Origin: Tetraselmis striata
Taxonomy: Eukaryota; Chlorophyta; Chlorodendrophyceae; Chlorodendrales; Chlorodendraceae
Assembly: GCA_006384855.1 (NCBI GenBank)
Contig: VCJN01000731.1
Location: 104,903-168,902, forward strand
Direction of reading: 5' to 3'
DNA: 64,000 nt
Positions 3,936 to 52,103 of this stretch are shown here, in pieces. The notes beneath the pieces were generated by a model, which was given only the letters and a program-made list of their open reading frames with translations, was not told the origin of the DNA and made no database searches. Both the position numbers and the translations under genes were made by a program. Each line of letters starts with the position of its first letter. Position 1 is the first letter of the stretch.

Positions 3936-6900
3936 CTACATCGACTGCGGGGTGGAAGCAGGAACATGAGAAGACGCAGAGTGGGCACGAGCACACGCAT
4001 CAGACTTGGCCATCTGCACACCGGCAGAGAGAATGCCGCCCAGGGTACCATGCACGCAAGCCGAGACCCGCTGCAACAGCCCCCGCCGTGTGCGCGACAT
4101 GTGACGGCGGAACTCAGCAGGTTGGCCGGCGACAAAGTTTCGAAGTGCCTGAACGGATTGACCACGAAGAAAGCAAGAGGTCGGGGCGGAAGGACCGCCC
4201 GGGAAGTTGCGCACAGCCAACAGCACCGCGAAGATGTAGACCACAGTCAAAGCGGACTTCCCGAGTCGGCCGCGGTCCTCAACCACAAAAGGGTAGTACC
4301 GGTGAACACCCTGCACTGGGGCGGAAGACGCCCGGTCCGCTGCCAACTTAGCATGCTCCGCCTCGGTCGCCGCGATTCCCGGGATGCACCAGCGGGGGTC
4401 GTTGCTCCAAGTGGGGGTCGTGGAGGACACGCACGCGAAGTCGATCATGTAATCGCACGCTGCCCCTCCCCACCCCGCCAGCGTCAGGTCCGACGGCCGC
4501 GAGCGGTCCGCTGGGCGCAGCCCACTCGTCTCAAGGGTCAAGTCGCCGGCTCCCGAGCGGTCCCGGTCAAGCACCGCCCCCGCATCAATTGCCACAGATG
4601 CCCACAGATTCTTCAAAGCGGTATGCATGCGGTGCTTGTAGTTCGCTACGGGGCATATGGGTAGATGATCCACGATGAAATCCGTAGCGCTCCGGTTCGA
4701 GCCATCCGTAGAGCGAAGCCATAAGGGATCAATACCACACGTTGGGCCAGGGCAAGTGACAAGCGCGGAACCTCCGCGCGGGCAAAGGCCCAGTACCCGC
4801 GCAGCGGCGGCCGCATAAGCAGCATGGGGAATCTTGCGGGCGGACTCGTGATCCGACTGGAAAAGCGATAGGGAGCCCGGCCCGCACGCGCTGTACAGGC
4901 GCAGGGTATCAAGTCGCGAGGCCGCTGCACCAGTACGTTGGAAGCTGAGATCGAGGGCCACGAAGTCACGCAAGCGAATCGCACGGCTGAGGTGGCGTTG
5001 GACAACCATGGTCGTGGGTTGATCATCGGAGGTCGCACCCGAACCCGTACCCGAGGGCGGAGCAGTAGAACCTGGCAGCGATTCTGGGAGGGAAACAGTG
5101 GCTGCTGACGGAGGGTGTGCCACTAATTCGCCCGGCGACGGTATCTTCAGAGCTACAAAAGCGCATGTAGTAACGGTATTGGCAGTACTCGTACCACCGA
5201 TAGGAAGCAATTGCTGGGCAGCAGAGGCGGCCTCACCAGTACCAACTCCAAGAGGAGTGGCCGTAAAAGGAGATGTGGTGACGCGCAATCCTCCGCTAGT
5301 GCTCGTACCCGTACGGGTCGTAGTACCAGCTGCTGGATCCGATGCAGCGGTGGTCGTAGCATTACTGACCGTAAGTAACTCGAAGATCTCGTGGGCGTGC
5401 CCATACGCCGCGCGTGCGCGCCGCACATCTTCTTGCGGTAACGTGGTTAGGGCCCGTACAGTCTCGTACACGCGGCGCGTCTCACGCGCCCATGGCAAAG
5501 CACTCGTAGCCACGGACGACACCTCGGCGCGGACCGCCTCGTATAAGGGGCCAAGGGCGGGCCCGTACTCCCGTACTAGCTTTGGCAGGACAACCGATTG
5601 CGCGGAATAAAACGCCGCAGGGGCCTCGGACTGCAGCAATGCCAGATTCAGACCGCCAAAATCCGCGGGCATACTCATCTGAACGATTGCAGCCTCCATG
5701 CGCGGTGTAGACTGGTCGCAAGCGTCCAGGCCAAGCAGCGAAAACGCAGCCACGGCCTCCAAGAAAGGGTCCAGCTCCGACGGCGGCATCATGCGGCTGA
5801 GGAAGCCAGTCTGCCGCACCGCGCATACGACCAGCAACCGCATGGCCCCATGGTGGCAGCCGTATCCCGACGTGCCAAAGGAGGCGATGCGCTCCAACAG
5901 TGTGGCGTGGGCCTCCCGGCGCCGCCCCAACGCGCCGGTCATCCACTCGGGGTAATGGCTAATAGGAGCACCCAGGTACACGGCGCCATCCTGGACAGGA
6001 TCATCGGCCGGGGTCCGAAATCCTCCCGGGGCCAACTTCTCCCGTACTGTCCGCAACTCGGACTCGCTGTCGCCGGGGTGACGAACGTACCGCGTCTTAC
6101 TGTCCTGTACCATCAGTCCGACTTTGGAAAGCTCCGTGCAGTACTCGTCGAAAACGCGCGGAACGTGGGCCGCGGCAGTGGCCGCGCCGCAATCATCCGC
6201 AAAACTCTGGCAAAAAGTATCAGCGGCGGTACGAGCCACAACCGCTTGCACCGGGCCCGCGATAGCGAGGCAGAAGTATAGCGGGGCCAGGACATCACCC
6301 TGGCGTACACCCGTACGAGACTGTAGGGTGGCGCGCAAAGTACCGGGATCATCCGTCGCGTAGTAGTACAGGTCGCTAGGGCGATCGTACAACATCTGGA
6401 AAAAAGGGATCAGGCCATGTAGCCGCGGGTGCTGAAGCAAGCCGTAAAGTATCGCACCCCGGGATACCTCATTGAAGGCATTCCGAATATCCAGGAGTAG
6501 TAGTCCTTTCCCACCAGTACCACGCCCGCCGAAAAGTTGCAGCGCCACCCGCATGCTCATATACGCCGTCTCACAGCCAGCTCCCGACTGAAAGCTGCGT
6601 TGCACCGGGCCCATGACCTCCCGCGCATCCGCACCCACTTGCCCCAGAGCGTGGGCGGAGGCCAGGCGCACCAGCACGGAGCCGACGCCGAGCGGGCGTA
6701 CTCGCAGCGGCTCGCCGCGCTTTTCCCGCTCCTCGCGCGCGGCGGGGTCGTCCTTGTGGAGCGCAAAGACGGAGCCACTCGCCAAGAAAGCCGCAGTGCG
6801 CGAGTGGCACCGCCCCGCCAGGCAGCGGTTCACCCACAGGCGCCATGAAGGTACGTCTAGGTCCCTGATGTGCTCCCAACGCCACCAGTCCACATGCCCT

Positions 6901-8129
6901 GCGGAAAGGCGGGGTGCACGACGCAGAACCCGCCGCTGGTCCCCCCCCCACCGCATAACCTCATCCGCATTGTCGCCCCACGACGGCGGCGCCCGTTGCA
7001 GGTCCGGCGGTTCTTCGGGGGGAGAGTACTCCGGGCTGGTGGCAGCAGGAGGCGGATGGAGGGCATCGAGGGCAGGGAGCGCCGCAGCGGCGTCAGACAC
7101 CATGCCGAGGTCAGCAGTGTCCAGCGCCTGGCGAGCGCGGCGCAGCTCCTGCACAGCGGTGAGTTTCGCCGCCCGGCGGTGAGCATCCACCACCGCCGGC
7201 GGCACTACCCCATCAGCCGCAGCATCGGCGCCCCCTTCCGCAGCCTCAGCAGCAGCCGCCCGCGCCCTCGCAGATCGCCGGCGCTTCCGTCGGCGGGCAC
7301 TCCGAGATGTGGTCGGCGGCAGCTCACCCGCCTCCATCTGGTAATTATGTAACTCGCTGCCATCCCGCGATTCGCGCCACAGTTGCTGCATCCCGCACAC
7401 CGAGAAGCCGGCGCGCACAGCATCCCCTGCCTCCCACAGCCGCACTCGCCGCTCCGCCAATTTCCGCACAACTGCGGGGCTGCTGGATGGGTAGGGTCGC
7501 AGTAGTAGCCCCGCAAATACGCAGACAGCGCCTTCGGCCCCGTACGACCGGTCGTCGGTAGGAGGGAAGCGGTCAGCATAGGCCAGCGTACGGTCTAGCA
7601 GGGGGAAGAGGACAGGCCGAGCTGCGGGACAGACGCCGACAGCCGTGCCCCGCAGCGGCGTACGGGGCATCTTGCGGTAGACATCGCTGGTAGCGCACCA
7701 CCGAGCGGTGGCCGCGAGAGCGGCATCATGAGCGGCTGAGGCAGGAGCCGGCGCGTGCTGGCGCTGCAGCGCCCGCACGCCAGCCGCCGACGCCGGGAGA
7801 GCCACACCGGGGGGCGGAGCCGTGGGAGGAGGGGGGCTGCAGAACTGGCAGGTGGCGGCACGGGCCGCCGCTTGCGCGCCATGGAACACGTGGTGGCCCG
7901 AGCGCGGGCAGCCGTCTCGTGGGACGCACCGCAGATACACAGAAGGGTCGAAAGTCGTAGCGTAGGCGAGGTGCATGGCAGCTACCTCCGGGTCGTCGGA
8001 CTCCATCCCGTGGTTCACGTGCGTGCACAAGGGGGCTGGCCGCCGGTAGGTGCGTCCGCAGCCGCCATCGCAACACCGGAATTGCCAGTCAACGCCCCCG
8101 CCGGGCGTCGACGATTGCACCCGCGCCAT
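3936..8129 (-). CDS. Non-LTR retrotransposon polyprotein: zinc finger, reverse transcriptase, restriction-like endonuclease
   Basis: A single intact ORF of 1,397 codons runs from the first ATG (8129-8127, context GCGATGG) to TAG; the frame is open further upstream without an ATG. Residues from that ATG: an N-terminal C2H2-like finger (C19/C20, C24, H37, H40), a second Cys/His cluster (C68, C74, C94, C97), and a basic nuclear-localisation stretch near 273-287. The reverse transcriptase core follows: motif A LLLLDIRNAFNEV with D547, motif B RTGVRQGD (609-612 is RQGD), and motif C SFADD with D645/D646, so FADD replaces the usual YADD. Near the C-terminus are C1126, C1131, H1155, C1159, then RPSD (D1214) and YMIDF (D1230). 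This matches the CCHC-plus-PD-(D/E)XK arrangement of early-branching non-LTR elements (R2/CRE/NeSL-like). I see no AP endonuclease or RNase H. The enzyme would nick target DNA and prime reverse transcription there. All three catalytic aspartates are present, so it may be active. Confidence 0.85.
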   Translation of the reverse strand: MARVQSSTPGGGVDWQFRCCDGGCGRTYRRPAPLCTHVNHGMESDDPEVAAMHLAYATTFDPSVYLRCVPRDGCPRSGHHVFHGAQAAARAATCQFCSPPPPTAPPPGVALPASAAGVRALQRQHAPAPASAAHDAALAATARWCATSDVYRKMPRTPLRGTAVGVCPAARPVLFPLLDRTLAYADRFPPTDDRSYGAEGAVCVFAGLLLRPYPSSSPAVVRKLAERRVRLWEAGDAVRAGFSVCGMQQLWRESRDGSELHNYQMEAGELPPTTSRSARRRKRRRSARARAAAAEAAEGGADAAADGVVPPAVVDAHRRAAKLTAVQELRRARQALDTADLGMVSDAAAALPALDALHPPPAATSPEYSPPEEPPDLQRAPPSWGDNADEVMRWGGDQRRVLRRAPRLSAGHVDWWRWEHIRDLDVPSWRLWVNRCLAGRCHSRTAAFLASGSVFALHKDDPAAREEREKRGEPLRVRPLGVGSVLVRLASAHALGQVGADAREVMGPVQRSFQSGAGCETAYMSMRVALQLFGGRGTGGKGLLLLDIRNAFNEVSRGAILYGLLQHPRLHGLIPFFQMLYDRPSDLYYYATDDPGTLRATLQSRTGVRQGDVLAPLYFCLAIAGPVQAVVARTAADTFCQSFADDCGAATAAAHVPRVFDEYCTELSKVGLMVQDSKTRYVRHPGDSESELRTVREKLAPGGFRTPADDPVQDGAVYLGAPISHYPEWMTGALGRRREAHATLLERIASFGTSGYGCHHGAMRLLVVCAVRQTGFLSRMMPPSELDPFLEAVAAFSLLGLDACDQSTPRMEAAIVQMSMPADFGGLNLALLQSEAPAAFYSAQSVVLPKLVREYGPALGPLYEAVRAEVSSVATSALPWARETRRVYETVRALTTLPQEDVRRARAAYGHAHEIFELLTVSNATTTAASDPAAGTTTRTGTSTSGGLRVTTSPFTATPLGVGTGEAASAAQQLLPIGGTSTANTVTTCAFVALKIPSPGELVAHPPSAATVSLPESLPGSTAPPSGTGSGATSDDQPTTMVVQRHLSRAIRLRDFVALDLSFQRTGAAASRLDTLRLYSACGPGSLSLFQSDHESARKIPHAAYAAAAARVLGLCPRGGSALVTCPGPTCGIDPLWLRSTDGSNRSATDFIVDHLPICPVANYKHRMHTALKNLWASVAIDAGAVLDRDRSGAGDLTLETSGLRPADRSRPSDLTLAGWGGAACDYMIDFACVSSTTPTWSNDPRWCIPGIAATEAEHAKLAADRASSAPVQGVHRYYPFVVEDRGRLGKSALTVVYIFAVLLAVRNFPGGPSAPTSCFLRGQSVQALRNFVAGQPAEFRRHMSRTRRGLLQRVSACVHGTLGGILSAGVQMAKSDACARAHSASSHVPASTPQSM

Positions 8130-8291
8130 CGCGCCCACCACCACCGCCGCCCCCGCCGGGACCGCGACCCCCACGGGAGACCCCCTAGCAGAGGGGCATG
8201 GAGGGGCCAGAGGACGCCCCACGGTGCTGAACCCCCACCGGCCACGCCACAGCCAGAGGCTGGGGGTCGGGGGAGGAGTATTAAAATGGTC
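8130..8291 (-). other. Element leader between repeat A and the ORF
   Basis: This GC-rich segment follows repeat A in the sense direction and leads into the start codon. In frame with the ORF it is open back to about 8,290 but lacks an ATG, so it is probably 5' UTR. 8235-8276 is duplicated in inverted orientation at 2687-2728. The 14-bp repeat GTCGTCCTGTGGAT that marks the deletion point of the derivative copy begins at 8289. Confidence 0.6.
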
Positions 8292-9308: not shown

Positions 9309-9361
9309 GGGGGGGGGGGGGGCGGGGGGGGGGGGGGGGGGGCGGGGGGGGGGGGGGGGGG
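9309..9361. repeat. 53-bp almost pure poly-G tract
   Basis: G14-C-G19-C-G18 makes the longest homopolymer-like block in the window. It is a strong G-quadruplex candidate and a likely site of sequencing error. Open frames through it (poly-Gly/poly-Pro) are not credible as proteins. Confidence 0.9.
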
Positions 9362-9734
9362 CGGCCGAGGTGGAGAAACTAACACCCAGTCGACGACCGC
9401 CTTCCGCAGCAGTCAACGACACATCGGAGGCGAGGAGCAGCGCGCCACTACTATTTATATGCACGTATTGTCAAGAGCTAGTCGGTGCGGCATTGTGTCG
9501 GTGTAATTTCGCAATGTTTATTGTTGAAGTAGCACGGCGTAATGGATACGGCGAGTGAATCCGGGATAATGTGTGCGACGAATGTGCGCGCGCAGCGTTG
9601 TGCGGCGGTGTGCGGCGGTGTGCGGCGGTGTGCACCGATGTTAATATAGTGTGAATATTATATCGGCCGTAGACGATCAGGTCTGGCAGCACCGCCCGTG
9701 CTTGTAAATAAGCGACAATGGGTCTAGTCTCCCG
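9362..9734. other. Spacer with degenerate satellite edge
   Basis: No gene is supported. Three perfect copies of the 10-mer TGCGGCGGTG lie at 9601-9630. A 21-bp match to the satellite spacer (GTTAATATAGTGTGAATATT plus A) lies at 9640-9660, followed by about 75 bp that do not match the satellite well. This looks like an eroded array edge. Confidence 0.5.
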
Positions 9735-11328
9735 CTAGTCTGTGCACCGCAAGTGCACTCCGCAAGCCTCGCCTCCATCCGCGTCGGAACCGGTAGTAAG
9801 TGTTGTTGTGTGCGCACATCGTGACAACATTACACGGTGGCAATTGCAATTATTAGCGGTGGATAATGTGAAGGCGTTTTCGAAATCGACAGAGAATGAG
9901 GCGGTGCTGGCGGAGTGCATTGGCGGTGCACAGAATAGCGTGTTGCTGGGGTTTTGGCTGCATCGGACGCCGTATTCCCACCCATCCGGCACGGAATGTC
10001 CGGTTTTCACACATTTGTGTGTTAATAAAGCAGTGTGAATATTACGCGTCTTTTACGCCGGGTGGGTGGGCATCCGGCGTCCGATGCACCCCAATTATTT
10101 GCAGCACGCTACTCTACGCACCCCCAACGCACTCCGCAAGCCTCGCCTCCATCCGCGTCGGAACCGGTAGTAAGTGTTGTTGTGTGCGCACATCGTGACA
10201 ACATTACACGGTGGCAATTGCAATTAGCGGTGGGTAATGTGAAGGCGTTTTCGAAATCGACAGAGAATGAGGCGGTGCTGGCGGAGTGCATTGGCGGTGC
10301 ACAGAATAGCGTGTTGCTGGGGTTTTGGCTGCATCGGACGCCGTATTCCCACCCATCCGGCACGGAATGTCCGGTTTTCACACATTTGTGTGTTAATAAG
10401 TGTGAATATTACGCGTCTTTTACGCCGGGTGGGTGGGCATCCGGCGTCCGATGCACCCCAATTATTTGCAGCACGCTACTCTACGCACCCCCAACGCACT
10501 CCGCAAGCCTCGCCTCCATCCGCGTCGGAACCGGTAGTAAGTGTTGTTGTGTGCGCACATCGTGACAACATTACACGGTGGCAATTGCAATTAGCGGTGG
10601 GTAATGTGAAGGCGTTTTCGAAATCGACAGAGAATGAGGCGGTGCTGGCGGAGTGCATTGGCGGTGCACAGAATAGCGTGTTGCTGGGGTTTTGGCTGCA
10701 TCGGACGCCGTATTCCCACCCATCCGGCACGGAATGTCCGGTTTTCACACATTTGTGTGTTAATAAGTGTGAATATTACGCGTCTTTTACGCCGGGTGGG
10801 TGGGCATCCGGCGTCCGATGCACCCCAATTATTTGCAGCACGCTACTCTACGCACCCCCAACGCACTCCGCAAGCCTCGCCTCCATCCGCGTCGGAACCG
10901 GTAGTAAGTGTTGTTGTGTGCGCACATCGTGACAACATTACACGGTGGCAATTGCAATTAGCGGTGGGTAATGTGAAGGCGTTTTCGAAATCGACAGAGA
11001 ATGAGGCGGTGATAGGCGGAGTGCATTGGCGGTGCACAGAATAGCGTGTTGCTGGGGTTTTGGCTGCATCGGACGCCGTATTCCCACCCATCCGGCACGG
11101 AATGTCCGGTTTTCACACATTTGCGTGTGAATATATATAGTGTGAATATTACGTAGGCGTCTTTTACGCTGGGTGGATGGGCATCCGGCGTCCGATGCAC
11201 CCCGAATCTCACCAACACGCTACTCTACGCACCCCCAACGCATTCCGCCAGCCCCCCCTCTTTCCGCGCAGGTCCTACGTTCCATTGTATGTATATACAT
11301 ACGTACATGTATTGCTCCGAAACCAGCC
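9735..11328 (+). repeat. Satellite array 1 (short units, ends in a truncated long unit)
   Basis: About four short units have periods of 371, 367 and 368 bp, measured between copies of TGTTGCTGGG at 9941, 10312, 10679 and 11047. The array begins inside the plus-oriented 93-bp module. After a variant spacer near 11,120-11,150 it ends with the first half of a long unit (module plus TA-rich spacer, about 11,168-11,328), broken off within the motif CCGAAACCAGCCCA. The 3-bp TTA insertion and the CACAGAATAGC/CATAGAATAGC difference separate it from array 2. Small reading frames here have no independent support. Confidence 0.9.
10057..10361. repeat. Reference short unit: 93-bp inverted arms around a 119-bp core
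   Basis: Arm 1 at 10057-10149 and arm 2 at 10269-10361 are reverse complements of each other, the same length without gaps, with 73 of 93 positions matching by hand count. The core (10150-10268) holds TGTGCGCACA, a perfect 10-bp palindrome, flanked by GTTGT and ACAAC. A 62-bp spacer with CACACATTTGTGTG follows before the next unit. The same layout holds in every unit I examined in all four arrays, so each repeat could fold into a large hairpin. Confidence 0.85.
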
Positions 11329-11639
11329 CAAACTTTATGAGTGCACAAGTGTAAATGGGGGGGGGGGGGGGGGGGGGGATGTGGCGGCGGGGCATCCACT
11401 CACACATACCCCGGCGATGCATGACAGATATTACATGCCGTGGCGGGTCGGCGGGCCGACCCGGCGGGCCGACCCGGCGGGCCGACCCGGCGGGGGGGGG
11501 GGGGGGGGGGGCGTCTATTCAACTACACGTGCGACAGTGTCGTTTCGTGGAGCAGTATATGTGCCCGGCCTCATTTATACCGCCCCCTACCTGCGCTGCA
11601 TGGTCTACCCCTAAGAATTACTTAGCACAAACCGCCATT
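11329..11639. repeat. G-tracts and GC-rich 13-bp tandem repeat
   Basis: Homopolymers of 22 G (11357-11378) and 20 G (11492-11511) bracket three perfect copies of GCGGGCCGACCCG at 11451-11489. This marks the left edge of the 5.1-kb island between satellite arrays 1 and 2. No gene is seen. Confidence 0.8.
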
Positions 11640-12245: not shown

Positions 12246-12875
12246 ATGGCGGTGCCGGCCCCACCTATGTCTAGGGCCACCTCCTCACAACACCCCGCCA
12301 CGACGGCGTCGGCCACCGCCGACGGCGCCGTTGCGGGGGGGGACGCCCTGCCAGGCGACGATGATGCGCCTGGTGCGCCGCGTCAGGAGGCGGAGGAGGC
12401 CGTGGTCGAGGCGACTGATCGGGCTGAGGGGGTTGTCGAGGCGAGCGAGGCTGCGCTCGCGCCACCCGCCCCGCAGCCACCTGCGGGACATGCCGACTTG
12501 CTCGTCGCCATGTTGACCGGAGCACTACGAGCAGTGGCGGGAGGCGGCCACATGCACTATCATGTGCGTGTCCTGGCCGGACGCCCGTCATGCGTGGACT
12601 GCGGCCAACGGACGGACTGGGAGTGTTGCTGCGACGGCACCCCGGCTTTGTGCGGCCCCAAGTACCCATGCATGGCGACCCATCAGCGGGCAGTCCCCTG
12701 CCCGACCACGGCCACGAAGAGGGCGGAGTTCCGCCATGTCAGGGACGCGTTCCACGACGCGACTCGCGCCGCCGTGTGTGAGGCTTCCGAGAAGGCACGC
12801 GCGGCTGGTGGGGTGCGCAGGGTGAGGCGGCGGACGGCCCAGGAGCTGAAGGAGAGCGAGACATGCCGTCAGTGA
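12246..12875 (+). CDS. C-terminal fragment with piggyBac-like zinc ribbon
   Basis: The first ATG is at 12246 and the frame ends at TGA 12875. The N-terminal part is Ala/Pro/Glu-rich and low in complexity. The C-terminal part has an ordered cysteine cluster, CVDCGQRTDWECCCDG followed by LC, PC and TH. This resembles the CxxC...C..C...LC...C...H ribbon at the C-terminus of piggyBac-type (DDE_Tnp_1_7) transposases. A basic stretch, GGVRRVRRRTAQELK, ends the protein. No DDE catalytic core is seen upstream, so at best this is a detached tail or an exon of a split gene. The frame upstream is open without an ATG. The family call is from spacing only and is tentative. Confidence 0.35.
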   Translation: MAVPAPPMSRATSSQHPATTASATADGAVAGGDALPGDDDAPGAPRQEAEEAVVEATDRAEGVVEASEAALAPPAPQPPAGHADLLVAMLTGALRAVAGGGHMHYHVRVLAGRPSCVDCGQRTDWECCCDGTPALCGPKYPCMATHQRAVPCPTTATKRAEFRHVRDAFHDATRAAVCEASEKARAAGGVRRVRRRTAQELKESETCRQ

Positions 12876-12917
12876 GGTCGGGCGCAATGTCATTGGGTGG
12901 GGCACACGGGCGTGTAA

Positions 12918-13052
12918 CACTTGCACTTTGCGCGTACTGCTGGGTTACATCCAGGCTGCGTCACACTATGCAACCGGAAAGGCTGCGTTGCTACTGCAAA
13001 CGATGCGACGCCTCACTCTGTAGCAACCGCTGCCGCGCCTATCCCACAGCCG

Positions 13053-13083
<31 letters not shown>

Positions 13084-13233
13084 GCGCGGGATCCCCGCCA
13101 TCAACAGCTTGCACTTGCACTTTGCGCGTACTGCTAGGTTACATCCAGGCGGCGTCACACCGGAAAGGCTGCGTTGCTACTGCAAACGATGCTACGCCTC
13201 ACTCGGTAGCAACCGCTGCCCCGCCCATCCCAC
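12918..13233 (+). repeat. Imperfect direct repeat (130 and 122 bp) around poly-C
   Basis: Copy 1 at 12918-13047 and copy 2 at 13112-13233 are nearly identical apart from an 8-bp insertion in copy 1 and a few substitutions. They are separated by 28 C (13056-13083). In one plus-strand frame (12863-13255) each copy encodes RLRCYCKRCxASLxSNRC, again similar to a piggyBac C-terminal zinc ribbon (CxC..C...L....C). The reading frame crosses the poly-C as poly-Pro. A duplicated transposase tail is the simplest reading. Confidence 0.6.
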
Positions 13234-13255
13234 TCGGGATGCTGAGAGCAGCTAA

Positions 13256-13830
13256 AGGGCACCGGGGGCGGGGCAAGAGGGAGCAGGGCCAATGATTGTG
13301 GAAGAGCGGGGACCCGCTTGCATGCCATCGTATTATATCTTGCACAATATCTGTTGCTGCACTCATATCTCACATCACTAGCTTAGCTATAGTGATCCCC
13401 CCCCCCCCCCCCCCCCCGCACCGCGTACGCACAAGCCTGGGTATACGCATCAACTGCCCGCCGGGATGAGAAACTGGTATTGGTAGTGTGTCTGTGGGGT
13501 GGAGGGGGGGGCAAAAGAGCTGCCAATTGCTGCCAAGCTGGTGCGTTACATTGGGGCAGGCGCTGGGCAGACAATTGGGGCTCGCTTCAGAGCATTGTCT
13601 AGTGCCTATGCGGCTGCGCCGCCTCCGCCGCATGCAGACTCTCCGAGCTCACCAGCACCGCCACCTCAGTCATGCGGCCCTGCATCCCGCAGCCCGCCGC
13701 CGCCAGCCAGATCAGAGGTATCCAGAAGCCAGTGCTGGGGTTGTTGCGGCATGACCGCATAGTTTTCAGCGCCTGCCGTCCACAACTTGTAATGCATCCC
13801 TTTCCGCCGATTCCGCTGTATGCGCTGTCT
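13256..13830. other. Non-coding spacer with poly-C
   Basis: 21 C lie at 13397-13417. No reading frame here is supported by motif or composition. It may be the downstream intron or 3' region of the minus-strand transposase-like gene at 14.3-15.8 kb. Confidence 0.4.
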
Positions 13831-14323
13831 TGGCGCCGCGCTGCCCCGGCCGCCGCGCGTTGGCGCCGCGCTGCCCCGGCCGCCGCGCGTTGGCGCCGCG
13901 CTGCCCCGGCCGCCGCGCGTTGGCGCCGCGCTGCCCCGGCCGCCGCGCGTTGGCGCCGCGCTGCCCCGGCCGCCGCGCGTTGGCGCCGCGCTGCCCCGGC
14001 CGCCGCGCGTTGGCGCCGCGCTGCCCCGGCCGCCGCGCGTTGGCGCCGCGCTGCCCCGGCCGCCGCGCGTTGGCGCCGCGCTGCCCCGGCCGCCGCGCCT
14101 TGGCGCCGCGCTGCCCCGGCCGCCGCGCCTTGGCGCCGCGCTGCCCCGGCCGCCGCGCCTTGGCGCCGCGCTGCCCCGGCCGCCGCGCCTTGGCGCCGCG
14201 CTGCCCCGGCCGCCGCGCCTTGGCGCCGCGCTGCCCCGGCCGCCGCGCCTTGGCGCCGCGCTGCCCCGGCCGCCGCGCCTTGGCGCCGCGCTGCCCCGGC
14301 CGCCGCGCCTTGGCGCCGCGCTG
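13831..14323. repeat. 30-bp minisatellite, 16 copies
   Basis: Sixteen perfect-length copies starting TGGCGCCGCGCTGCC are followed by a 13-bp partial. Copies 1-8 end in GCGCGT and copies 9-16 end in GCGCCT; no other difference is seen. Because 30 is divisible by 3, all six frames stay open and give decapeptide repeats (for example RRQGAAAGAA on the minus strand). This explains the long open frames here. It follows a possible GTGGAC donor of the minus-strand gene, so it may sit in an intron. Confidence 0.95.
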
Positions 14324-14344: not shown

Positions 14345-15823
14345 TAGTGAGCGCGTCCACCTGCGCCTTGCGCTCGGGGCCGTCCTCCTCCGTCACCACA
14401 TTCTGCAAACCCCACCGCGTGACGAACCACGCAGCTCCTTGCAGGCGCTTGTACATGTGCCCAAGCACCGCCAGTCGTGACACCGAACGCACCACCGCTG
14501 GGGACGCGAGCTCCTTCTCGGGCATGATCGCCTTCACCCGGGCCTCCTCGAGGAGCGGACCGGCGTTAAGAATGGAAAACGTTTCCATGTGGTGCAAGCA
14601 GTCCTCCATGACCCAGCCGGGCTGCACCGTCACCTTGCCTGACCCTGCAGTCATGGAGGGGAATGCCGTCACGCCCACGCCCACGCCCACGCCCGGGGGG
14701 GGGGGGGGGGGGGGGGGGGAGGGGTTTACCTTTCGATTCTTGGACACTGCAAACGAAGGGCGCAACCCGCGTTCAAAGTTGCTGGGTATCGGGACTAAAG
14801 CCTGGCGCCGGTCTTCCTGCTTCATAGCTCGGAATCCAATGTGGCCCTGCACGGTGACAAATTTCCTCCAGAAGTCCCTTCCCAAGCCAAAAAAAAACAG
14901 GTGGAACGGCGCGAGGGGGAAGAGGTTGACCATGCTGACATAGCCCCGGACCACATGCACATGGCACACGCCATGGCAGCCAGTGTTCTGCTTGGCCTCC
15001 GCCAGCCGGGTTGTGTTGACCGCACGCCGGGCAAGGTGCGTGATTCACTGGACAAGTCATCGCCTTCATGGACGGTTACCAAGCGAGCCTCCCCGTCCGC
15101 ATCCACAGGGGGGTGCTCCTGGGCAGCCGTCATAGCCTCCACAACCTGCCACGCCGACCGGGCGGGTGCGTGTGATTCCATACAACCGCAGTTGAGTGGT
15201 GCCACCAGCACGCAGGCCGGGCCCACTCACCTCTGAACGCAGAAGGCCCACAATGCCCCCGTCCTCGAAAACAGCGCGCCACTGGGTCGCCCCGCCGTAG
15301 TCCTCCAACACCCACTCGGTAACGACGCCGGTTATCTCGCCGTAGTGCCATACTCCCCGGAACTTCTTGGCGATGACCTTCATGTAGAAGTCGCCGGAAT
15401 CGCCTTTCCATATCACGCCCTCATCGCGGGTTCCACGCCCGCCGGCGGCCACGCAGGCGCGTCGATGTCCATACCGTCTTCGCCAACGGGGTCCTCCCCC
15501 ACGCCCATCACATCGTCCACCTTCGAGCCGCCGTCGTCCGAGACCGGCGCCGGCGGGCCGTTTCCGACGGCTGCAGCTACTCCTGCTGCCGCCCCTGTTG
15601 TTGTTGCTGCTGCTGCTGCCGCCCCTGCTGCTGCTGCTTGTGATAAGGCGGCCTTGCGGCGCAACTTAGCCGCACGCTTCAACGAGTGGCTACAGTTCGG
15701 GAATTTTAGGAAGTGCCGCTCTCGCGCCATCTTCTCACAAGTGCCCGTCACGTTGCCCCGGCAGTGCTTGCATGAGTACACGCCATCCTTCGACACACTC
15801 GCTATCCATCCCTTTGCCGGCAT
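14345..15823 (-). pseudogene. Broken, intron-containing hAT-like transposase gene
   Basis: On the minus strand, from ATG at 15823: a BED-type finger (C18, C21, H37, C44 within YSCKHCRGNVTG...PNC), then a basic and poly-Ala/Thr linker to about 15,415. After a frame change comes a Tudor-like segment (KKFRGVWHYGEITGV ... WRAVFEDGG) ending at 15231. An 85-bp intron (15146-15230; GTGAGT...CAG, phase 0) precedes the exon beginning VVEAMTAAQEH. A second frame change near 15,040 leads to TRLAEAKQNTGCHGVCHVHV and MVNLFPLAPFHLFF. A 108-bp intron (14622-14729; GTAAAC...GTGCAG, phase 0) joins SKNRK to PGWVMEDCLHHMETF. The last part, ELASPAVVRSVSRLAVLGHM...LQGAAWFV, resembles the region of hAT transposases around their conserved TRF motif. 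The two frame breaks suggest decay. The superfamily is tentative, as I see no complete catalytic core. Confidence 0.4.
14695..14719. repeat. 25-bp poly-G inside an intron
   Basis: The run lies within the proposed minus-strand intron 14622-14729, next to four copies of CCCACG (14,671-14,694). Its intronic position explains why the poly-Pro frame across it need not be protein. Confidence 0.7.
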
Positions 15824-16405: not shown

Positions 16406-16428
16406 GTCACATCTGAATCTCACAGTGC
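16406..16428 (+). mobile_element. Retrotransposon 3' terminus abutting the satellite
   Basis: These 23 bp are the exact reverse complement of 3541-3563, the 3' end of the element at 3.5-8.6 kb; the copy here is plus-oriented. Upstream similarity is weak apart from TTCGTCACC, so it is probably a related family sharing its 3' end. The next base resumes the satellite in the middle of a 93-bp module (TCCGCAAGCCCC). Confidence 0.65.
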
Positions 16429-19400
16429 TCCGCAAGCCCCGCCTCCATCCGCGTCGGAACCGATAGTAAGTGTTGTTGTGTGCGCACATCGTGACAACAT
16501 TACACGGTGGCAATTGGAATTATTAGCGGTGGATAATGTGAAGGCGTTTTCGAAATCGACAGAGAATGAGGCGGTGCTGGCGGAGTGCATTGGCGGTGCA
16601 TAGAATAGCGTGTTGCTGGGGTTTTGGCTGCATCGGACGCCGTATTCCCACCCATCCGGCACGGAATGTCCGGTTTTCACACATTTGCGTGTGAATATAG
16701 TGTGAATATAACGCGTCTTTTACGCCGGGTGGATGGGCATCCGGCGTCCGATGCACCCCAATTATTTGCAGCACGCTACTCTACGCACCCCCAACGCACT
16801 CCGCAAGCCCCGCCTCCATCCGCGTCGGAACCGATAGTAAGTGTTGTTGTGTGCGCACATCGTGACAACATTACACGGTGGCAATTGCAATTAGCGGTGG
16901 ATAATGTGAAGGCGTTTTCGAAATCGACAGAGAGAGAGGCGGTGCTGGCGGAGTGCATTGGCGGTGCATAGAATAGCGTGTTGCTGGGGTTTTGGCTGCA
17001 TCGGACGCCGTATTCCCACCCATCCGGCACGGAATGTCCGGTTTTCACACATTTGCGTGTGAATATAGTGTGAATATTACGCGTCTTTTACGCCGGGTGG
17101 ATGGGCATCCGGCGTCCGATGCACCCCAATTATTTGCAGCACGCTACTCTACGCACCCCCAACGCACTCCGCAAGCCCCGCCTCCATCCGCGTCGGAACC
17201 GATAGTAAGTGTTGTTGTGTGCGCACATCGTGACAACATTACACGGTGGCAATTGGAATTATTAGCGGTGGATAATGTGAAGGCGTTTTCGAAATCGACA
17301 GAGAATGAGGCGGTGCTGGCGGAGTGCATTGGCGGTGCATAGAATAGCGTGTTGCTGGGGTTTTGGCTGCATCGGACGCCGTATTCCCACCCATCCGGCA
17401 CGGAATGTCCGGTTTTCACACATTTGCGTGTGAATATAGTGTGAATATTAACGCGTCTTTTACGCCGGGTGGATGGGCATCCGGCGTCCGATGCACCCCA
17501 ATTATTTGCAGCACGCTACTCTACGCACCCCCAACGCACTCCGCAAGCCCCGCCTCCATCCGCGTCGGAACCGATAGTAAGTGTTGTTGTGTGCGCACAT
17601 CGTGACAACATTACACGGTGGCAATTGCAATTAGCGGTGGATAATGTGAAGGCGTTTTCGAAATCGACAGAGAGATGAGGCGGTGCTGGCGGAGTGCATT
17701 GGCGGTGCATAGAATAGCGTGTTGCTGGGGTTTTGGCTGCATCGGACGCCGTATTCCCACCCATCCGGCACGGAATGTCCGGTTTTCACACATTTGCGTG
17801 TGAATATAGTGTGAATATTACGCGTCTTTTACGCCGGGTGGATGGGCATCCGGCGTCCGATGCACCCCAATTATTTGCAGCACGCTACTCTACGCACCCC
17901 CAACGCACTCCGCAAGCCCCGCCTCCATCCGCGTCGGAACCGATAGTAAGTGTTGTTGTGTGCGCACATCGTGACAACATTACACGGTGGCAATTGCATA
18001 TTAGCGGTGGATAATGTGAAGGCGTTTTCGAAATCGACAGAGAATGAGGCGGTGCTGGCGGAGTGCATTGGCGGTGCATATAATAGCGTGTTGCTGGGGT
18101 TTTGGCTGCATCGGACGCCGTATTCCCACCCATCCGGCACGGAATGTCCGGTTTTCACACATTTGTGTGTTAATAGAGTGTGAATATTACGCGTCTTTTA
18201 CGCCGGGTGGATGGGCATCCGGCGTCCGATGCACCCCAATTATTTGCAGCACGCTACTCTACGCACCCCCAACGCACTCCGCAAGCCCCGCCTCCATCCG
18301 CGTCGGAACCGATAGTAAGTGTTGTTGTGTGCGCACATCGTGACAACATTACACGGTGGCAATTGCAATTATTAGCGGTGGATAATGTGAAGGCGTTTTC
18401 GAGATCGACAGAGAATGAGGCGGTGCTGGCGGAGTGCATTGGCGGTGCATAGAATAGCGTGTTGCTGGGGTTTTGGCTGCATCGGACGCCGTATTCCCAC
18501 CCATCCGGCACGGAATGTCCGGTTTTCACACATTTGCGTGTGAATATAGTGTGAATATTACGCGTCTTTTACGCCGGGTGGATGGGCATCCGGCGTCCGA
18601 TGCACCCCAATTATTTGCAGCACGCTACTCTACGCACCCCCAACGCACTCCGCAAGCCCCGCCTCCATCCGCGTCGGAACCGATAGTAAGTGTTGTTGTG
18701 TGCGCACATCGTGACAACATTACACGGTGGCAATTGCAATTATTAGCGGTGGATAATGTGAAGGCGTTTTCGAAATCGACAGAGAATGAGGCGGTGCTGG
18801 CGGAGTGCATTGGCGGTGCATAGAATAGCGTGTTGCTGGGGTTTTGGCTGCATCGGACGCCGTATTCCCACCCATCCGGCACGGAATGTCCGGTTTTCAC
18901 ACATTTGCGTGTGAATATAGTGTGAATATTACGCGTCTTTTACGCCGGGTGGATGGGCATCCGGCGTCCGATGCACCCCAATTATTTGCAGCACGCTACT
19001 CTACGCACCCCCAACGCACTCCGCAAGCCCCGCCTCCATCCGCGTCGGAACCGATAGTAAGTGTTGTTGTGTGCGCACATCGTGACAACATTACACGGTG
19101 GCAATTGCAATTATTAGCGGTGGATAATGTGAAGGCGTTTTCGAAATCGACAGAGAATGAGGCGGTGCTGGCGGAGTGCATTGGCGGTGCATAGAATAGC
19201 GTGTTGCTGGGGTTTTGGCTGCATCGGACGCCGTATTCCCACCCATCCGGCACGGAATGTCCGGTTTTCACACATTTGCGTGTGAATATAGTGTGAATAT
19301 TACGCGTCTTTTACGCCGGGTGGATGGGCATCCGGCGTCCGATGCACCCCAATTATTTGCAGCACGCTACTCTACGCACCCCCAACGCACTCCGCAAGCC

Positions 19401-22400
19401 CCGCCTCCATCCGCGTCGGAACCGATAGTAAGTGTTGTTGTGTGCGCACATCGTGACAACATTACACGGTGGCAATTGCAATTAGCGGTGGATAATGTGA
19501 AGGCGTTTTCGAAATCGACAGAGAATGAGGCGGTGCTGGCGGAGTGCATTGGCGGTGCATAGAATAGCGTGTTGCTGGGGTTTTGGCTGCATCGGACGCC
19601 GTATTCCCACCCATCCGGCACGGAATGTCCGGTTTTCACACATTTGTGTGTTAATAGAGTGTGAATATTACGCGTCTTTTCCGCCGGGTGGATGGGCATG
19701 CGGCGTCCGATGCACCCCAATTATTTGCAGCACGCTACTCTACGCACCCCCAACGCACTCCGCAAGCCCCGCCTCCATCCGCGTCGGAACCGATAGTAAG
19801 TGTTGTTGTGTGCGCACATCGTGACAACATTACACGGTGGCAATTGCAATTATTAGCGGTGGATAATGTGAAGGCGTTTTCGAAATCGACAGAGAATGAG
19901 GCGGTGCTGGCGGAGTGCATTGGCGGTGCATAGAATAGCGTGTTGCTGGGGTTTTGGCTGCATCGGACGCCGTATTCCCACCCATCCGGCACGGAATGTC
20001 CGGTTTTCACACATTTGCGTGTGAATATAGTGTGAATATTACGCGTCTTTTACGCCGGGTGGATGGGCATCCGGCGTCCGATGCACCCCAATTATTTGCA
20101 GCACGCTACTCTACGCACCCCCAACGCACTCCGCAAGCCCCGCCTCCATCCGCGTCGGAACCGATAGTAAGTGTTGTTGTGTGCGCACATCGTGACAACA
20201 TTACACGGTGGCAATTGCAATATTAGCGGTGGATAATGTGAAGGCGTTTTCGAAATCGACAGAGAATGAGGCGGTGCTGGCGGAGTGCATTGGCGGTGCA
20301 TAGAATAGCGTGTTGCTGGGGTTTTGGCTGCATCGGACGCCGTATTCCCACCCATCCGGCACGGAATGTCCGGTTTTCACACATTTGCGTGTGAATATAG
20401 TGTGAATATTACGCGTCTTTTACGCCGGGTGGATGGGCATCCGGCGTCCGATGCACCCCAATTATTTGCAGCACGCTACTCTACGCACCCCCAACGCACT
20501 CCGCAAGCCCCGCCTCCATCCGCGTCGGAACCGATAGTAAGTGTTGTTGTGTGCGCACATCGTGACAACATTACACGGTGGCAATTGCAATTATTAGCGG
20601 TGGATAATGTGAAGGCGTTTTCGAAATCGACAGAGAATGAGGCGGTGCTGGCGGAGTGCATTGGCGGTGCATAGAATAGCGTGTTGCTGGGGTTTTGGCT
20701 GCATCGGACGCCGTATTCCCACCCATCCGGCACGGAATGTCCGGTTTTCACACATTTGCGTGTGAATATAGTGTGAATATTACGCGTCTTTTACGCCGGG
20801 TGGATGGGCATCCGGCGTCCGATGCACCCCAATTATTTGCAGCACGCTACTCTACGCACCCCCAACGCACTCCGCAAGCCCCGCCTCCATCCGCGTCGGA
20901 ACCGATAGTAAGTGTTGTTGTGTGCGCACATCGTGACAACATTACACGGTGGCAATTGCAATTATTAGCGGTGGATAATGTGAAGGCGTTTTCGAAATCG
21001 ACAGAGAATGAGGCGGTGCTGGCGGAGTGCATTGGCGGTGCATAGAATAGCGTGTTGCTGGGGTTTTGGCTGCATCGGACGCCGTATTCCCACCCATCCG
21101 GCACGGAATGTCCGGTTTTCACACATTTGCGTGTGAATATAGTGTGAATATTACGCGTCTTTTACGCCGGGTGGATGGGCATCCGGCGTCCGATGCACCC
21201 CAATTATTTGCAGCACGCTACTCTACGCACCCCCAACGCACTCCGCAAGCCCCGCCTCCATCCGCGTCGGAACCGATAGTAAGTGTTGTTGTGTGCGCAC
21301 ATCGTGACAACATTACACGGTGGCAATTGCAATTATTAGCGGTGGATAATGTGAAGGCGTTTTCGAAATCGACAGAGAATGAGGCGGTGCTGGCGGAGTG
21401 CATTGGCGGTGCATAGAATAGCGTGTTGCTGGGGTTTTGGCTGCATCGGACGCCGTATTCCCACCCATCCGGCACGGAATGTCCGGTTTTCACACATTTG
21501 TGTGTTAATATAGTGTGAATATTACGCGTCTTTTACGCCGGGTGGATGGGCATCCGGCGTCCGATGCACCCCAATTATTTGCAGCACGCTACTCTACGCA
21601 CCCCCAACGCACTCCGCAAGCCCCGCCTCCATCCGCGTCGGAACCGATAGTAAGTGTTGTTGTGTGCGCACATCGTGACAACATTACACGGTGGCAATTG
21701 CAATATTAGCGGTGGATAATGTGAAGGCGTTTTCGAAATCGACAGAGAATGAGGCGGTGCTGGCGGAGTGCATTGGCGGTGCATAGAATAGCGTGTTGCT
21801 GGGGTTTTGGCTGCATCGGACGCCGTATTCCCACCCATCCGGCACGGAATGTCCGGTTTTCACACATTTGCGTGTGAATATAGTGTGAATATTACGCGTC
21901 TTTTACGCCGGGTGGATGGGCATCCGGCGTCCGATGCACCCCAATTATTTGCAGCACGCTACTCTACGCACCCCCAACGCACTCCGCAAGCCCCGCCTCC
22001 ATCCGCGTCGGAACCGATAGTAAGTGTTGTTGTGTGCGCACATCGTGACAACATTACACGGTGGCAATTGCAATTATTAGCGGTGGATAATGTGAAGGCG
22101 TTTTCGAAATCGACAGAGAATGAGGCGGTGCTGGCGGAGTGCATTGGCGGTGCATAGAATAGCGTGTTGCTGGGGTTTTGGCTGCATCGGACGCCGTATT
22201 CCCACCCATCCGGCACGGAATGTCCGGTTTTCACACATTTGCGTGTGAATATAGTGTGAATATTACGCGTCTTTTACGCCGGGTGGATGGGCATCCGGCG
22301 TCCGATGCACCCCAATTATTTGCAGCACGCTACTCTACGCACCCCCAACGCACTCCGCAAGCCCCGCCTCCATCCGCGTCGGAACCGATAGTAAGTGTTG

Positions 22401-24180
22401 TTGTGTGCGCACATCGTGACAACATTACACGGTGGCAATTGCAATTATTAGCGGTGGATAATGTGAAGGCGTTTTCGAAATCGACAGAGAATGAGGCGGT
22501 GCTGGCGGAGTGCATTGGCGGTGCATAGAATAGCGTGTTGCTGGGGTTTTGGCTGCATCGGACGCCGTATTCCCACCCATCCGGCACGGAATGTCCGGTT
22601 TTCACACATTTGCGTGTGAATATAGTGTGAATATTACGCGTCTTTTACGCCGGGTGGATGGGCATCCGGCGTCCGATGCACCCCAATTATTTGCAGCACG
22701 CTACTCTACGCACCCCCAACGCACTCCGCAAGCCCCGCCTCCATCCGCGTCGGAACCGATAGTAAGTGTTGTTGTGTGCGCACATCGTGACAACATTACA
22801 CGGTGGCAATTGCAATTATTAGCGGTGGATAATGTGAAGGCGTTTTCGAAATCGACAGAGAATGAGGCGGTGCTGGCGGAGTGCATTGGCGGTGCATAGA
22901 ATAGCGTGTTGCTGGGGTTTTGGCTGCATCGGACGCCGTATTCCCACCCATCCGGCACGGAATGTCCGGTTTTCACACATTTGCGTGTGAATATAGTGTG
23001 AATATTACGCGTCTTTTACGCCGGGTGGATGGGCATCCGGCGTCCGATGCACCCCAATTATTTGCAGCACGCTACTCTACGCACCCCCAACGCACTCCGC
23101 AAGCCCCGCCTCCATCCGCGTCGGAACCGATAGTAAGTGTTGTTGTGTGCGCACATCGTGACAACATTACACGGTGGCAATTGCAATTAGCGGTGGATAA
23201 TGTGAAGGCGTTTTCGAAATCGACAGAGAATGAGGCGGTGCTGGCGGAGTGCATTGGCGGTGCATAGAATAGCGTGTTGCTGGGGTTTTGGCTGCATCGG
23301 ACGCCGTATTCCCACCCATCCGGCACGGAATGTCCGGTTTTCACACATTTGTGTGTTAATAGAGTGTGAATATTACGCGTCTTTTCCGCCGGGTGGATGG
23401 GCATCCGGCGTCCGATGCACCCCAATTATTTGCAGCACGCTACTCTACGCACCCCCAACGCACTCCGCAAGCCCCGCCTCCATCCGCGTCGGAACCGATA
23501 GTAAGTGTTGTTGTGTGCGCACATCGTGACAACATTACACGGTGGCAATTGCAATTAGCGGTGGATAATGTGAAGGCGTTTTCGAAATCGACAGAGAATG
23601 AGGCGGTGCTGGCGGAGTGCATTGGCGGTGCATAGAATAGCGTGTTGCTGGGGTTTTGGCTGCATCGGACGCCGTATTCCCACCCATCCGGCACGGAATG
23701 TCCGGTTTTCACACATTTGCGTGTGAATATAGTGTGAATATTACGCGTCTTTTACGCCGGGTGGATGGGCATCCGGCGTCCGATGCACCCCAATTATTTG
23801 CAGCACGCTACTCTACGCACCGCCAACGCACTCCGCAAGCCCCGCCTCCATCCGCGTCGGAACCGGTAGTAAGTGTTGTTGTGTGCGCACATCGTGACAA
23901 CATTACACGGTGGCAATTGCAATTATTAGCGGTGGATAATGTGAAGGCGTTTTCGAAATCGACAGAGAATGAGGCGGTGCTGGCGGAGTGCATTGGCGGT
24001 GCATAGAATAGCGTGTTGCTGGGGTTTTGGCTGCATCGGACGCCGTATTCCCACCCATCCGGCACGGAATGTCCGGTTTTCACACATTTGTGTGTGAATA
24101 TAGTGTGAATATTACGCGTCTTTTACGCCGGGTGGATGGGCATCCGGCGTCCGATGCACCCCAATTATTTGCAGCACGCT
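16428..24180 (+). repeat. Satellite array 2: about 21 near-identical short units
   Basis: Tandem short units of 371 bp (368 when TTA in the core is missing) run without interruption and differ by only a handful of bases. Spacer variants (GCGTGTGAATATAG versus TGTGTTAATAGAG) and a TTTTCCGCC variant allow units to be tracked. Two units sharing both rare variants (around 19,643-19,684 and 23,349-23,390) are 3,706 bp, ten units, apart, pointing to recent amplification of a multi-unit block. The open frames of 80-117 codons on both strands repeat with the unit and carry no independent coding signal. Confidence 0.95.
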
Positions 24181-27100
24181 ACTCTACGCACCCCCAATGC
24201 ACTCCGCAAGCCCCGCCTCCATCCGCGTCGGAACCGGTAGTAAGTGATGTTGTGTGCGCACATCGTGACAAGATTACACAGTGGGAATTGCAATTATTAG
24301 CGGTGGATAATGTGAAAATGTTTTCGAAATCAACGGAGAATGAGGCGGTAGGTGCTGGCGGAGTGCATCGGCGGTGCATAGGATAGCGTGTTGCTGGGAT
24401 TTTGGCTGCATCGGACGCCGTATTCCCATCCATCCGGCACGGAATGTCCGGTTGCACACATTTGTGTGTGACTATAGTGTGAATATTACGCGTCTTTTAC
24501 GCCAGGTGGATGGGCATCCGGCGTCCGATGCACCCCGAATCTCACCAACACGTTACTCTACGCACCGCCAATGCACTCCGCCAGCCCCGCCTCTTTCCGC
24601 GCGCGTCCCACATTGCATTGTATATATACATACGTACATGTCCTGCTCCGAAACCAGCCCACATGTCTTTTACGCCGGGTGGATGGGCATCCGGCGTCCG
24701 ATGCACCCCAAGTATTTGCAGCACGCTAGTCTATGCACCGCCAATGCACTCCGCCAGCCCCGCCTCCATCCGCGTGGGAACCGGTAGTAAGTGATGTTGT
24801 GTGCGCACATTGTGACAACATTACACAGTGGGAATTGCAGTTAGCGGTGGATAATGTGAAGGCATTTCGAAATCGACGGAGAATGAGGCGGTGCTGGCGG
24901 AGTGCATCGGCAGTGCATAGAATAGCGTGTTGCTGAGATTTTGGCTGCATCGGACGCCGTATTCCCATCCATCCGGCACGGACTGTCCGGTTGCACACAT
25001 TTGTGTGTGACTATAGTGTGAATATTACGCGTCTTTTACGCCGGGTGGATGGGCATCCGGCGTCCGATGCACCCCGAATCTCACCAACACGTTACTCTAC
25101 GCACCGCCAATGCACTCCGCCAGCCCCGCCTCTTTCCGCGCGCGTCCCACATTGCATTGTATATATATACATCCGTACATGTACTGCTCCGAAACCAGCC
25201 CACATGTCTTTTACGCCGGGTGGATGGGCATCCGGCGTCCGATGCACCCCAAGTATTTGCAGCACGCTAGTCTATGCACCGCCAATGCACTCCGCCAGCC
25301 CCGCCTCCATCCGCGTGGGATCCGGTAGTAAGTGATGTTGTGTGCGCACATCGTGACAAGATTACACAGTGGGAATTGCAATTAGCGGTGGATAATGTGA
25401 AAATGTTATCGAAATCAACGGAGAATGAGGCGGTAGGTGCTGGCGGAGTGCATCGGCGGTGCATAGGATAGCGTGTTGCTGGGATTTTGGCTGCATCGGA
25501 CGCCGTATTCCCATCCGTCCGGCACGGAATGTCCGGTTCGCACAGATTTGTGTGTGACTATAATGTGAATATTACGCGTCTTTTACGCCGGGTGGATGGG
25601 CATCCGGCGTCCGACGCACCCCGAATCTCACCACTCGTTACTCTACGCACCGCCAATGCACTCCGCCAGCCCCGCCTCCATCCGCGTGGGAACCGGCAGT
25701 AAGTGATGTTGTGTGCGCACATCGTGACAACATTACACAGTGGGAATTGCAGTTAGCGGTGGATAATGTGAAGGCATTTCGAAATCGACGGAGAATGAGG
25801 CGGTAGGTGCTGGCGGAGTGCATCGGCGGTGCATAGGATAGCGTGTTGCTGGGATTTTGGCTGCATCGGACGCCGTATTCCCATCCATCCGGCACGGAAT
25901 GTCCGGTTCGCACAGATTTGTGTGTGACTATAGTGTGAATATTACGCGTCTTTTACGCCGGGTGGATGGGCATCCGGCGTCCGATGCACCCCGAATCTCA
26001 CCAACACGTTACTCTACGCACCGCCAATGCACTCCGCCAGCCACGCCTCCATCCGCACGCGTCGTACATTGCATTGTATATATATATACATACGTACATG
26101 TACTGCTCCGAAACCAGCCCACATGTCTTTTACGCCGGGTGGATGGGCATCCGGCGTCCGATGCACCCCAAGTATTTGCAGCACGCTAGTCTATGCACCG
26201 CCAATGCACTCCGCCAGCCCCGCCTCCATCCGCGTGGGAACCGGTAGTAAGTGATGTTGTGTGCGCACATCGGGACAAGATTACACAGTGGGAATTGCAA
26301 TTAGCGGTGGATAATGTGAAAATGTTTTCGAAATCAACGGAGAATGAGGCGGTAGGTGCTGGCGGAGTGCATCGGCGGTGCATAGGATAGCGTGTTGCTG
26401 GGATTTTGGCTGCATCGGACGCCGTATTCCCATCCGTCCGGCACGGAATGTCCGGTTCGCACAGATTTGTGTGTGACTATAATGTGAATATTACGCGTCT
26501 TTTACGCCGGGTGGATGGGCATCCGGCGTCCGACGCACCCCGAATCTCACCACTCGTTACTCTACGCACCGCCAATGCACTCCGCCAGCCCCGCTTCCAT
26601 CCGCGTGGGATCCGGTAGTAAGTGATGTTGTGTGCGCACATCGTGACAACATTACACAGTGGGAATTGCAGTTAGCGGTGGATAATGTGAAGGCATTTCG
26701 AAATCGACGGAGAATGAGGCGGTAGGTGCTGGCGGAGTGCATCGGCGGTGCATAGGATAGCGTGTTGCTGGGATTTTGGCTGCATCGGACGCCGTATTCC
26801 CATCCATCCGGCACGGAATGTCCGGTTGCACAGATTTGTGTGTGACTATAGTGTGAATATTACGCGTCTTTTACGCCAGGTGGATGGGCATCCGGCGTCC
26901 GATGCACCCCGAATCTCACCAACACGTTACTCTACGCACCGCCAATGCACTCCGCCAGCCCCGCCTCTTTCCGCGCGCGTCCCACATTGCATTGTATATA
27001 TACATACGTACATGTCCTGCTCCGAAACCAGCCCACATGTCTTTTACGCCGGGTGGATGGGCATCCGGCGTCCGATGCACCCCAAGTATTTGCAGCACGC

Positions 27101-46963: not shown

Positions 46964-46993
46964 TTGGCGTGCATTGGCGGTGCGTAGAGTAAC
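46951..46993. repeat. Inversion junction between arrays 3 and 4
   Basis: GTTACTCTACGCA (46951-46963) is mirrored by TGCGTAGAGTAAC (46981-46993) across a 17-bp spacer, and the symmetry extends outward through both modules to about 46,885 and 47,056. Left of it all units are plus-oriented, right of it all are minus-oriented. The spacer itself contains TTGGCGTGCATTGGCGG, a partial repeat of module sequence. Confidence 0.9.

Positions 46994-51511: not shown

Positions 51512-51537
<26 letters not shown>
51512..51537. repeat. Expanded TA microsatellite (13 copies)
   Basis: The TA tract of the long-unit spacer is four to six dinucleotides in most units but reaches 13 here and 14 at 52070-52097. It is also longer than usual near 49,177, 55,010 and 60,657. 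Length varies unit by unit while flanks are constant, as expected from slippage. Confidence 0.85.

Positions 51538-51543
<6 letters not shown>

Positions 51544-52065: not shown

Positions 52066-52103
<38 letters not shown>

Follow-up and report, generated by a model that had tools for sequence, protein, structure and literature searches.

The window, that is, the whole 64,000-nt stretch of the Tetraselmis striata contig analyzed here, contains a satellite totaling 49,180 bp within the limits 9733-11339 and 16428-64000 (Table 1). On the minus strand beside it, an open frame of 1428 aa (3936-8222) carries a reverse-transcriptase domain (RVT_1, E 3e-10, residues 507-714) and resembles the ORF of a non-LTR retroelement; six peptide patterns found no relatives of it in viral contigs. 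By BLAST with module queries, the satellite was split into one module, A (93 bp), and three spacers, C (~119 bp), L (~62 bp) and G (~82 bp). Module A is present in the window in 266 copies, comprising 102 forward copies before C, 59 forward copies before G, 103 copies inverted relative to the array (hereafter A') and two broken copies at an orientation flip, so that one short module is used in both orientations. The forward copies followed by C or G (n = 161) lead two kinds of unit, A-C-A'-L of ~370 bp (102 units) and A-G of ~175 bp (59 units), and three sequence families contain them in different proportions (A-C-A'-L/A-G: 25/1 in family a, 47/29 in b and 30/29 in c). The GC content of the satellite is about 0.53-0.56 and that of the flanks 0.54-0.68, in 2-kb steps.

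Table 1. Positions of the satellite arrays and of representative modules and units in the 64,000-nt window.
Feature	Position	Strand	Remarks
Array 1, family a	9733-11339 (approximate)	+	four A-C-A'-L units (367-377 bp), then one diverged A-G
Left arm, module A	10057-10149	+	unit named in the preliminary description
Spacer C (core)	10150-10268	+	119 bp
Right arm, module A' (inverted)	10269-10361	-	73/93 against the left arm
Spacer L	10362-10423	+	62 bp; with the flanking A' and A it makes another palindrome of comparable quality, the loop being shorter
Array 2, family a	16428-24593	+	truncated unit and 21 A-C-A'-L units, 368-372 bp
Family b array	24674-46965	+	A-C-A'-L-A-G plus extra A-C-A'-L units
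A-C-A'-L-A-G repeat, family b example	24674-25214	+	~541 bp
A-G unit, example	25040-25214	+	~175 bp; no large palindrome, z -0.02
Flip axis	46887-47057		arms 46887-46963 and 46981-47057; 77 nt, 95% complementary, 17 nt between
Family c array	46966-64000	-	minus-strand array with the module order as before; 29 repeat intervals; continues beyond the window
Long L, family c example	50452-50567	-	116 bp; perfect 20-bp inverted repeat with a 6-nt loop

The preliminary description had reported that the unit at 10057-10361 is a palindrome of 93-119-93 architecture, and this geometry proved exact, with 73 of 93 reverse-complement matches and no gap. The next unit (10424) has arms identical to these, and its shuffled arm gave a mean of only 26.1 matches of 93 (sd 4.2, maximum 40 in 10,000 shuffles). 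Across the 102 A-C-A' units the arm identity averages 0.801 (sd 0.037, range 0.548-0.849), showing that the arm symmetry extends, well above random, beyond the few units originally aligned by hand. The lowest value belongs to a degenerate edge copy at 9683; the first unit of array 1 has a degenerate left arm, and the truncated unit at 16428, which has no left arm, stands outside the count. One copy per unit type was folded. As single-stranded DNA the 305-nt unit 10057-10361 reached -92 kcal/mol, whereas 100 shuffles averaged -55.5 (sd 3.5; z -10.3), and one copy of A'-L-A gave a z of -11.9, while the only A-G copy folded, 25040-25214, was indistinguishable from its shuffles (-18.9 against a mean of -18.8 kcal/mol). 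Thus, the further statement that every unit is palindromic holds for the 102 A-C-A'-L units among the 161 forward A-led units and is overstated for the other 59, which are A-G. Because A' resembles the A that follows it across L (identity 0.794, 0.798 and 0.804 in families a, b and c) about as much as the A that precedes it across C (0.784, 0.798 and 0.823), the phase of the palindrome is arbitrary; the palindrome is a chain of alternately oriented modules, broken by A-G, with no single phase.

Unbroken runs of the 370-bp unit occupy 9.7-11.3 kb and 16.4-24.5 kb, the second of them (array 2) being closed by the leading A, at 24501, of an A-G unit. Past 24.5 kb, A-C-A'-L-A-G of 539-596 bp is the most frequent repeat. 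This length was found for 46 of the 57 intervals between successive copies of A after G (17 of the 28 of family b and all 29 of family c), and the remaining 11, all in family b, contain extra 370-bp A-C-A'-L units. The 17 intervals of family b measure 539-546 bp; those of family c fall into two classes, 541-560 bp (15 of 29) and 593-596 bp (14 of 29). The spacing between the arms in family b is likewise of two kinds, 122-123 bp in 29 of its 47 units and 118-119 bp in the other 18, and in the longer-spaced units that we viewed, the inner end of A' is altered (compare the A' near 25436 with that near 24885).

Palindromic units (102) and units that have no large palindrome (59) stand side by side here, and therefore the satellite offers a natural test of symmetry against sequence. 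In this test the sequence record argues against maintained pairing. Arms within one unit resemble each other about as closely as arms taken from separate units do (within/between identity 0.782/0.782 in family a, 0.798/0.798 in b and 0.822/0.820 in c). The changes that distinguish the arm consensuses of the families are one-sided throughout (one-sided/two-sided: a-b 14/0, a-c 10/0, b-c 4/0), and no compensatory change was seen; within units there was one two-sided change, which did not restore the match. Within families, with subfamilies mixed, arm-matched sites varied less (0.0074) than mismatched sites (0.0339), a contrast that, taken alone, would suggest a constraint on pairing. We therefore also compared rare variants at matched and mismatched sites, leaving out the degenerate A at 9683 and the A copies at 62,400-62,800 and scoring no class of fewer than 15 copies. 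Across C the values were 0.0022/0.0063 in family a, 0.0016/0.0014 in b and 0.0018/0.0035 in c, that is, a contrast of about threefold in a and none in b, on small event counts; across L they were 0.0018/0.0022 in b and 0.0032/0.0077 in c. The direct-repeat control gave 0.0019/0.0017 in b and 0.0015/0.0093 in c, and because these directly repeated A copies of family c show the contrast too, we do not credit it to pairing. Once the direct-repeat control is taken into account, arm identities, compensation and rare variants give no support to selection on pairing, and the symmetry of the unit looks like a relic kept by homogenization, with no sign of arm co-evolution.

At about 46,970 the whole array reverses its orientation. 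The segment 46880-47060 folds to -102.9 kcal/mol (z -22), and its hairpin is the only inverted repeat in the window with arms of at least 60 nt and a spacing of at most 30. Palindromic units at the first three ranks on the two sides of the axis are 0.97-0.99 alike, against an overall mean of 0.954 and a maximum of 0.993. Copies mirrored around the axis were not clearly more alike than others; the rank correlations were weak (Spearman -0.21, -0.39 and -0.40; p 0.16, 0.04 and 0.03), many distant pairs being equally alike.

A further inverted duplication was found inside the spacer L. The long form of L makes up 14 of the 29 family-c copies, and in both copies examined its 20-bp inverted repeat is 100% matched and one of its arms is the tail of L itself; the repeat is absent from the one short L examined. 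We also ran nine spacer comparisons, in which C, L and G were set against one another and against reverse complements, each with 300 shuffles. The alignment score of G with its own reverse complement was reached by none of them, so that A-G is not wholly asymmetric. The corresponding counts were 3 of 300 for C, 22 of 300 for L and 24 of 300 for C against L. The five other comparisons were reached by 107 to 298 of 300, which discounts hidden homology between those spacers, and a match of the two ends of C with each other was reached by 251 of 300. G and L end in the same 9 bases, GTCTTTTAC.

Inverted duplications thus occur here at three sizes, namely A/A' (identity 0.80), the flip axis (77 nt, 95%) and the tail of L (20 bp, 100%), and that they recur suggests that fold-back duplication generated them. 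We consider it probable, on the evidence of this one window, that a composite satellite grew from a single 93-bp module by fold-back duplications and unequal exchange, that its symmetry is a fossil and that its location is plausibly pericentromeric. A broken or replicating strand would fold back through a single-stranded hairpin and leave inverted copies, repeatedly; foldback inversions mediated by such hairpins have been reported in yeast, as described in PMC7467729. Unequal crossing-over would then spread and homogenize the inverted copies, and the palindrome of the unit would be the fossil of one old event, held by homogenization of the array and not by selection on pairing.

Footprints of exchange can be seen in the A copies at the joint between L and C. 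In family b, the A copies that precede C differ at ten positions from those that precede G. Among the 18 joint copies of this family, 15 have the A-before-G state at nine of these positions, with a third base at the remaining one, two have the A-before-C state at all ten, and one is mixed. All 24 joint copies of family a show the A-before-C state at seven positions and the A-before-G state at the final two; one position holds a third base. These types of joint A fit exchange between directly repeated A copies at different points, and in this outgroup-free comparison they fit either direction, from the 370-bp to the 541-bp repeat or the reverse. As for location, the repeat lengths of ~175, ~370, ~541 and ~595 bp are of nucleosome scale and form higher-order repeats, which is usual, if not defining, for centromeric satellites. 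Since 175, 370 and 541 bp are near one, two and three nucleosomes, the array may be (peri)centromeric or belong to other heterochromatin, a suggestion that we make with less confidence than the others.

It is also conceivable, though in our judgment unlikely, that hairpins or cruciforms formed by the large palindromes assist in recruiting CENH3 and that the symmetry is selected for this purpose. Dyads or cruciforms have been proposed as deposition signals for CENPA in the account given in PMC8997354, and a comparable organization is described for Tribolium (PMC13081366). The strong single-strand folding of the unit, of A'-L-A and of the flip axis would suit such a role, as would the nucleosome-scale lengths and higher-order repeats. 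A long spacer between two arms disfavors cruciform extrusion from duplex DNA, and because the spacers here are about 62 to 126 bp, the units are unlikely to form cruciforms from the duplex; the flip axis, with its short spacer, could do so. Against such selection stand the absence of compensatory changes and the A-G units, which have no large symmetry. In a short-dyad test with one stretch per family and 20 shuffles each, the counts stayed at shuffle level in families a (5 against 4.7) and b (7 against 6.0) and were higher in c (10 against 4.2, sd 3.2), an elevation found as well in one of four flank stretches (14 against 7.6, sd 3.1). The strict CENP-B box (TTCGnnnnAnnCGGG, a motif of some taxa only) had no match on either strand of the whole window.

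The preliminary description had offered another origin, an arrayed MITE or foldback element. Under this reading A and A' would be the terminal inverted repeats and C the interior of the element, with the array built by tandem insertion or by recombination. The inverted termini around a short interior (73/93) invite this reading, and an exact 2-bp match (AC in the consensus) adjoins the arms on the outside in 96 of the 102 units, against a 3-bp match in one and none in five. The units being mutual copies, this match counts as a single inherited state with a chance of 1 in 16, as compatible with a 2-bp target-site duplication as with chance, and nothing longer is conserved. Directly repeated A copies also stay homologous for 9 bases past the presumed terminus, into the shared end of L and G, and a third class of A, that of A-G, lies outside any A-C-A' element. 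The three array edges that we saw lie in a decayed L, inside an A and near the end of a G; only the last, near 11,339, is close to a module end, and two of the three fall inside modules. Next to array 1, a profile search detected a degenerate remnant of L at 9628-9660 (E 0.0014), indicating that this edge is decayed and not sharply cut. The same search found no copy of A in the about 14.7 kb of non-satellite window, the remaining flank hits being of C and G only (E 0.8 to 8). In Drosophila virilis, the foldback element Tetris gave rise to satellite internal repeats, according to PMC4079207, and Tetris with the TIR-220 satellite resembles the present case in that inverted repeats are tied to a satellite array. 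Tetris is described there as a DNA transposon, whereas here the inverted repeats were the one clear feature of a transposon that we found. Thus, we do not find support for a transposon origin of the array and regard it as improbable.

Still less probable, in our view, is a role as a source of double-stranded RNA, in which read-through transcripts would fold and, after processing, yield small RNAs silencing the array; the long imperfect hairpins and a weak Rfam match to the hairpin miRNA family MIR408 (22.5 bits, E 0.01, gathering score 64; 24400-25700 only) speak for it, but the pairing is not upheld by compensation and such a hairpin might give that match anyway. With no Rfam match at the gathering score, no tRNA in the window and this one sub-threshold hairpin match, we set aside an RNA-gene or tRNA origin. 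A coding function was likewise set aside: open frames cross the array, but the length of C shifts by single bases between units.

Hairpin junctions are a familiar artefact of long-read libraries, and the flip, perhaps more of the array, might have arisen in assembly from a foldback read or a mis-joined array; there is little chance of this, since a foldback would give near-identical arms, whereas those at the flip differ by 5% over 77 nt, the 13 mirrored module pairs nearest the axis are 0.84-1.00 identical with differing L lengths, L forms and repeat patterns are unlike on the two sides, and the 102 unit palindromes are independent of the junction. The differences in arms and L forms across the axis make an exact foldback artefact unlikely.

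The satellite can be compared with a few described systems. A tandem array of foldback units had been called unusual for a satellite of this size, a fair description, but one with precedents in a satellite of 385 bp whose inverted repeats measure 80 bp and in larger Tribolium cases, as presented in PMC13081366. The former is from Trichogramma brassicae (Landais et al. 2000, as cited in PMC13081366) and is close to the present one in both unit length (385 against ~370 bp) and inverted repeats (80 against 93 bp); compared by description, a third copy of the module, higher-order repeats and a flip of the array are noted only here. In Tribolium madens, the macro-dyad satellites TmSat1 and TmSat2 are described as derived from one progenitor of ~110 bp, TmSat2 being a 704-bp repeat with ~300-bp arms, and the arrays as switching orientation at conserved inversion sites (PMC13081366). 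Like them, the Tetraselmis satellite has a short progenitor in both orientations (93 bp here against ~110 bp there), a palindrome within the repeat and flipping arrays: long imperfect inverted repeats lie within its monomer, and the single flip carries a 77-nt hairpin of 95%. The differences are of scale and composition. By the same account the Tribolium genomes are A+T-rich and their satellites, such as TmSat2 with its 704 bp and ~300-bp arms, fill multi-megabase regions, whereas here the GC content is about 0.55, the arms are 93 bp and one flip was seen in the window. The 1061-bp satellite of Tribolium brevicornis (Mravinac et al. 2005, as cited in PMC13081366) is similar in that its monomer consists of two related, inversely oriented segments, which at ~470 bp are, on a comparison by description, much longer than the 93-bp arms here. 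By analogy, we would regard the T. brassicae satellite and the Tribolium macro-dyad satellites as the closest precedents and the present case as one of the same kind.

The present satellite adds a GC-rich example in which inverted subunits go together with a flip at the level of the array, the satellite examples compared being from insects, and its recurring inverted duplications suggest a concrete mechanism. A bolder form of it would have one hairpin-primed foldback process, still continuing, produce the symmetry at all three scales, the 20-bp repeat in L, the 93-bp arms and the flip of the array; nested dyads like those of Tribolium would then have arisen independently in a GC-rich genome from another lineage, because they favor (peri)centromere chromatin. 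We think this rather unlikely; if true, the satellite rewrites itself. Among the best matches listed in the open literature, algae and haptophytes included, no paper could be linked to this satellite. A blastn search with 10000-10400 as the query found no relatives in plasmids, and exact searches, which would miss diverged relatives, found none in viral contigs (one 21-base pattern) or prokaryote genome contigs (one 27-base pattern).

The flanks show several further features. Runs of poly-G/poly-C occur at 9309-9361, 11357-11378, 11492-11511, 13056-13083, 13397-13417 and 14695-14719, the one at 11357 starting less than 20 bases from the end of array 1; inside the satellite there are none of 12 or more bases, and none of six telomere-like motifs tried formed a run. 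The 5.1-kb island between the satellite arrays contains a minisatellite (13829-14323) with 16.5 copies of a 30-bp unit at 99% matches, crossed by open frames on both strands. At 12863-13255, a cysteine-rich segment is present twice in tandem within one predicted open frame.
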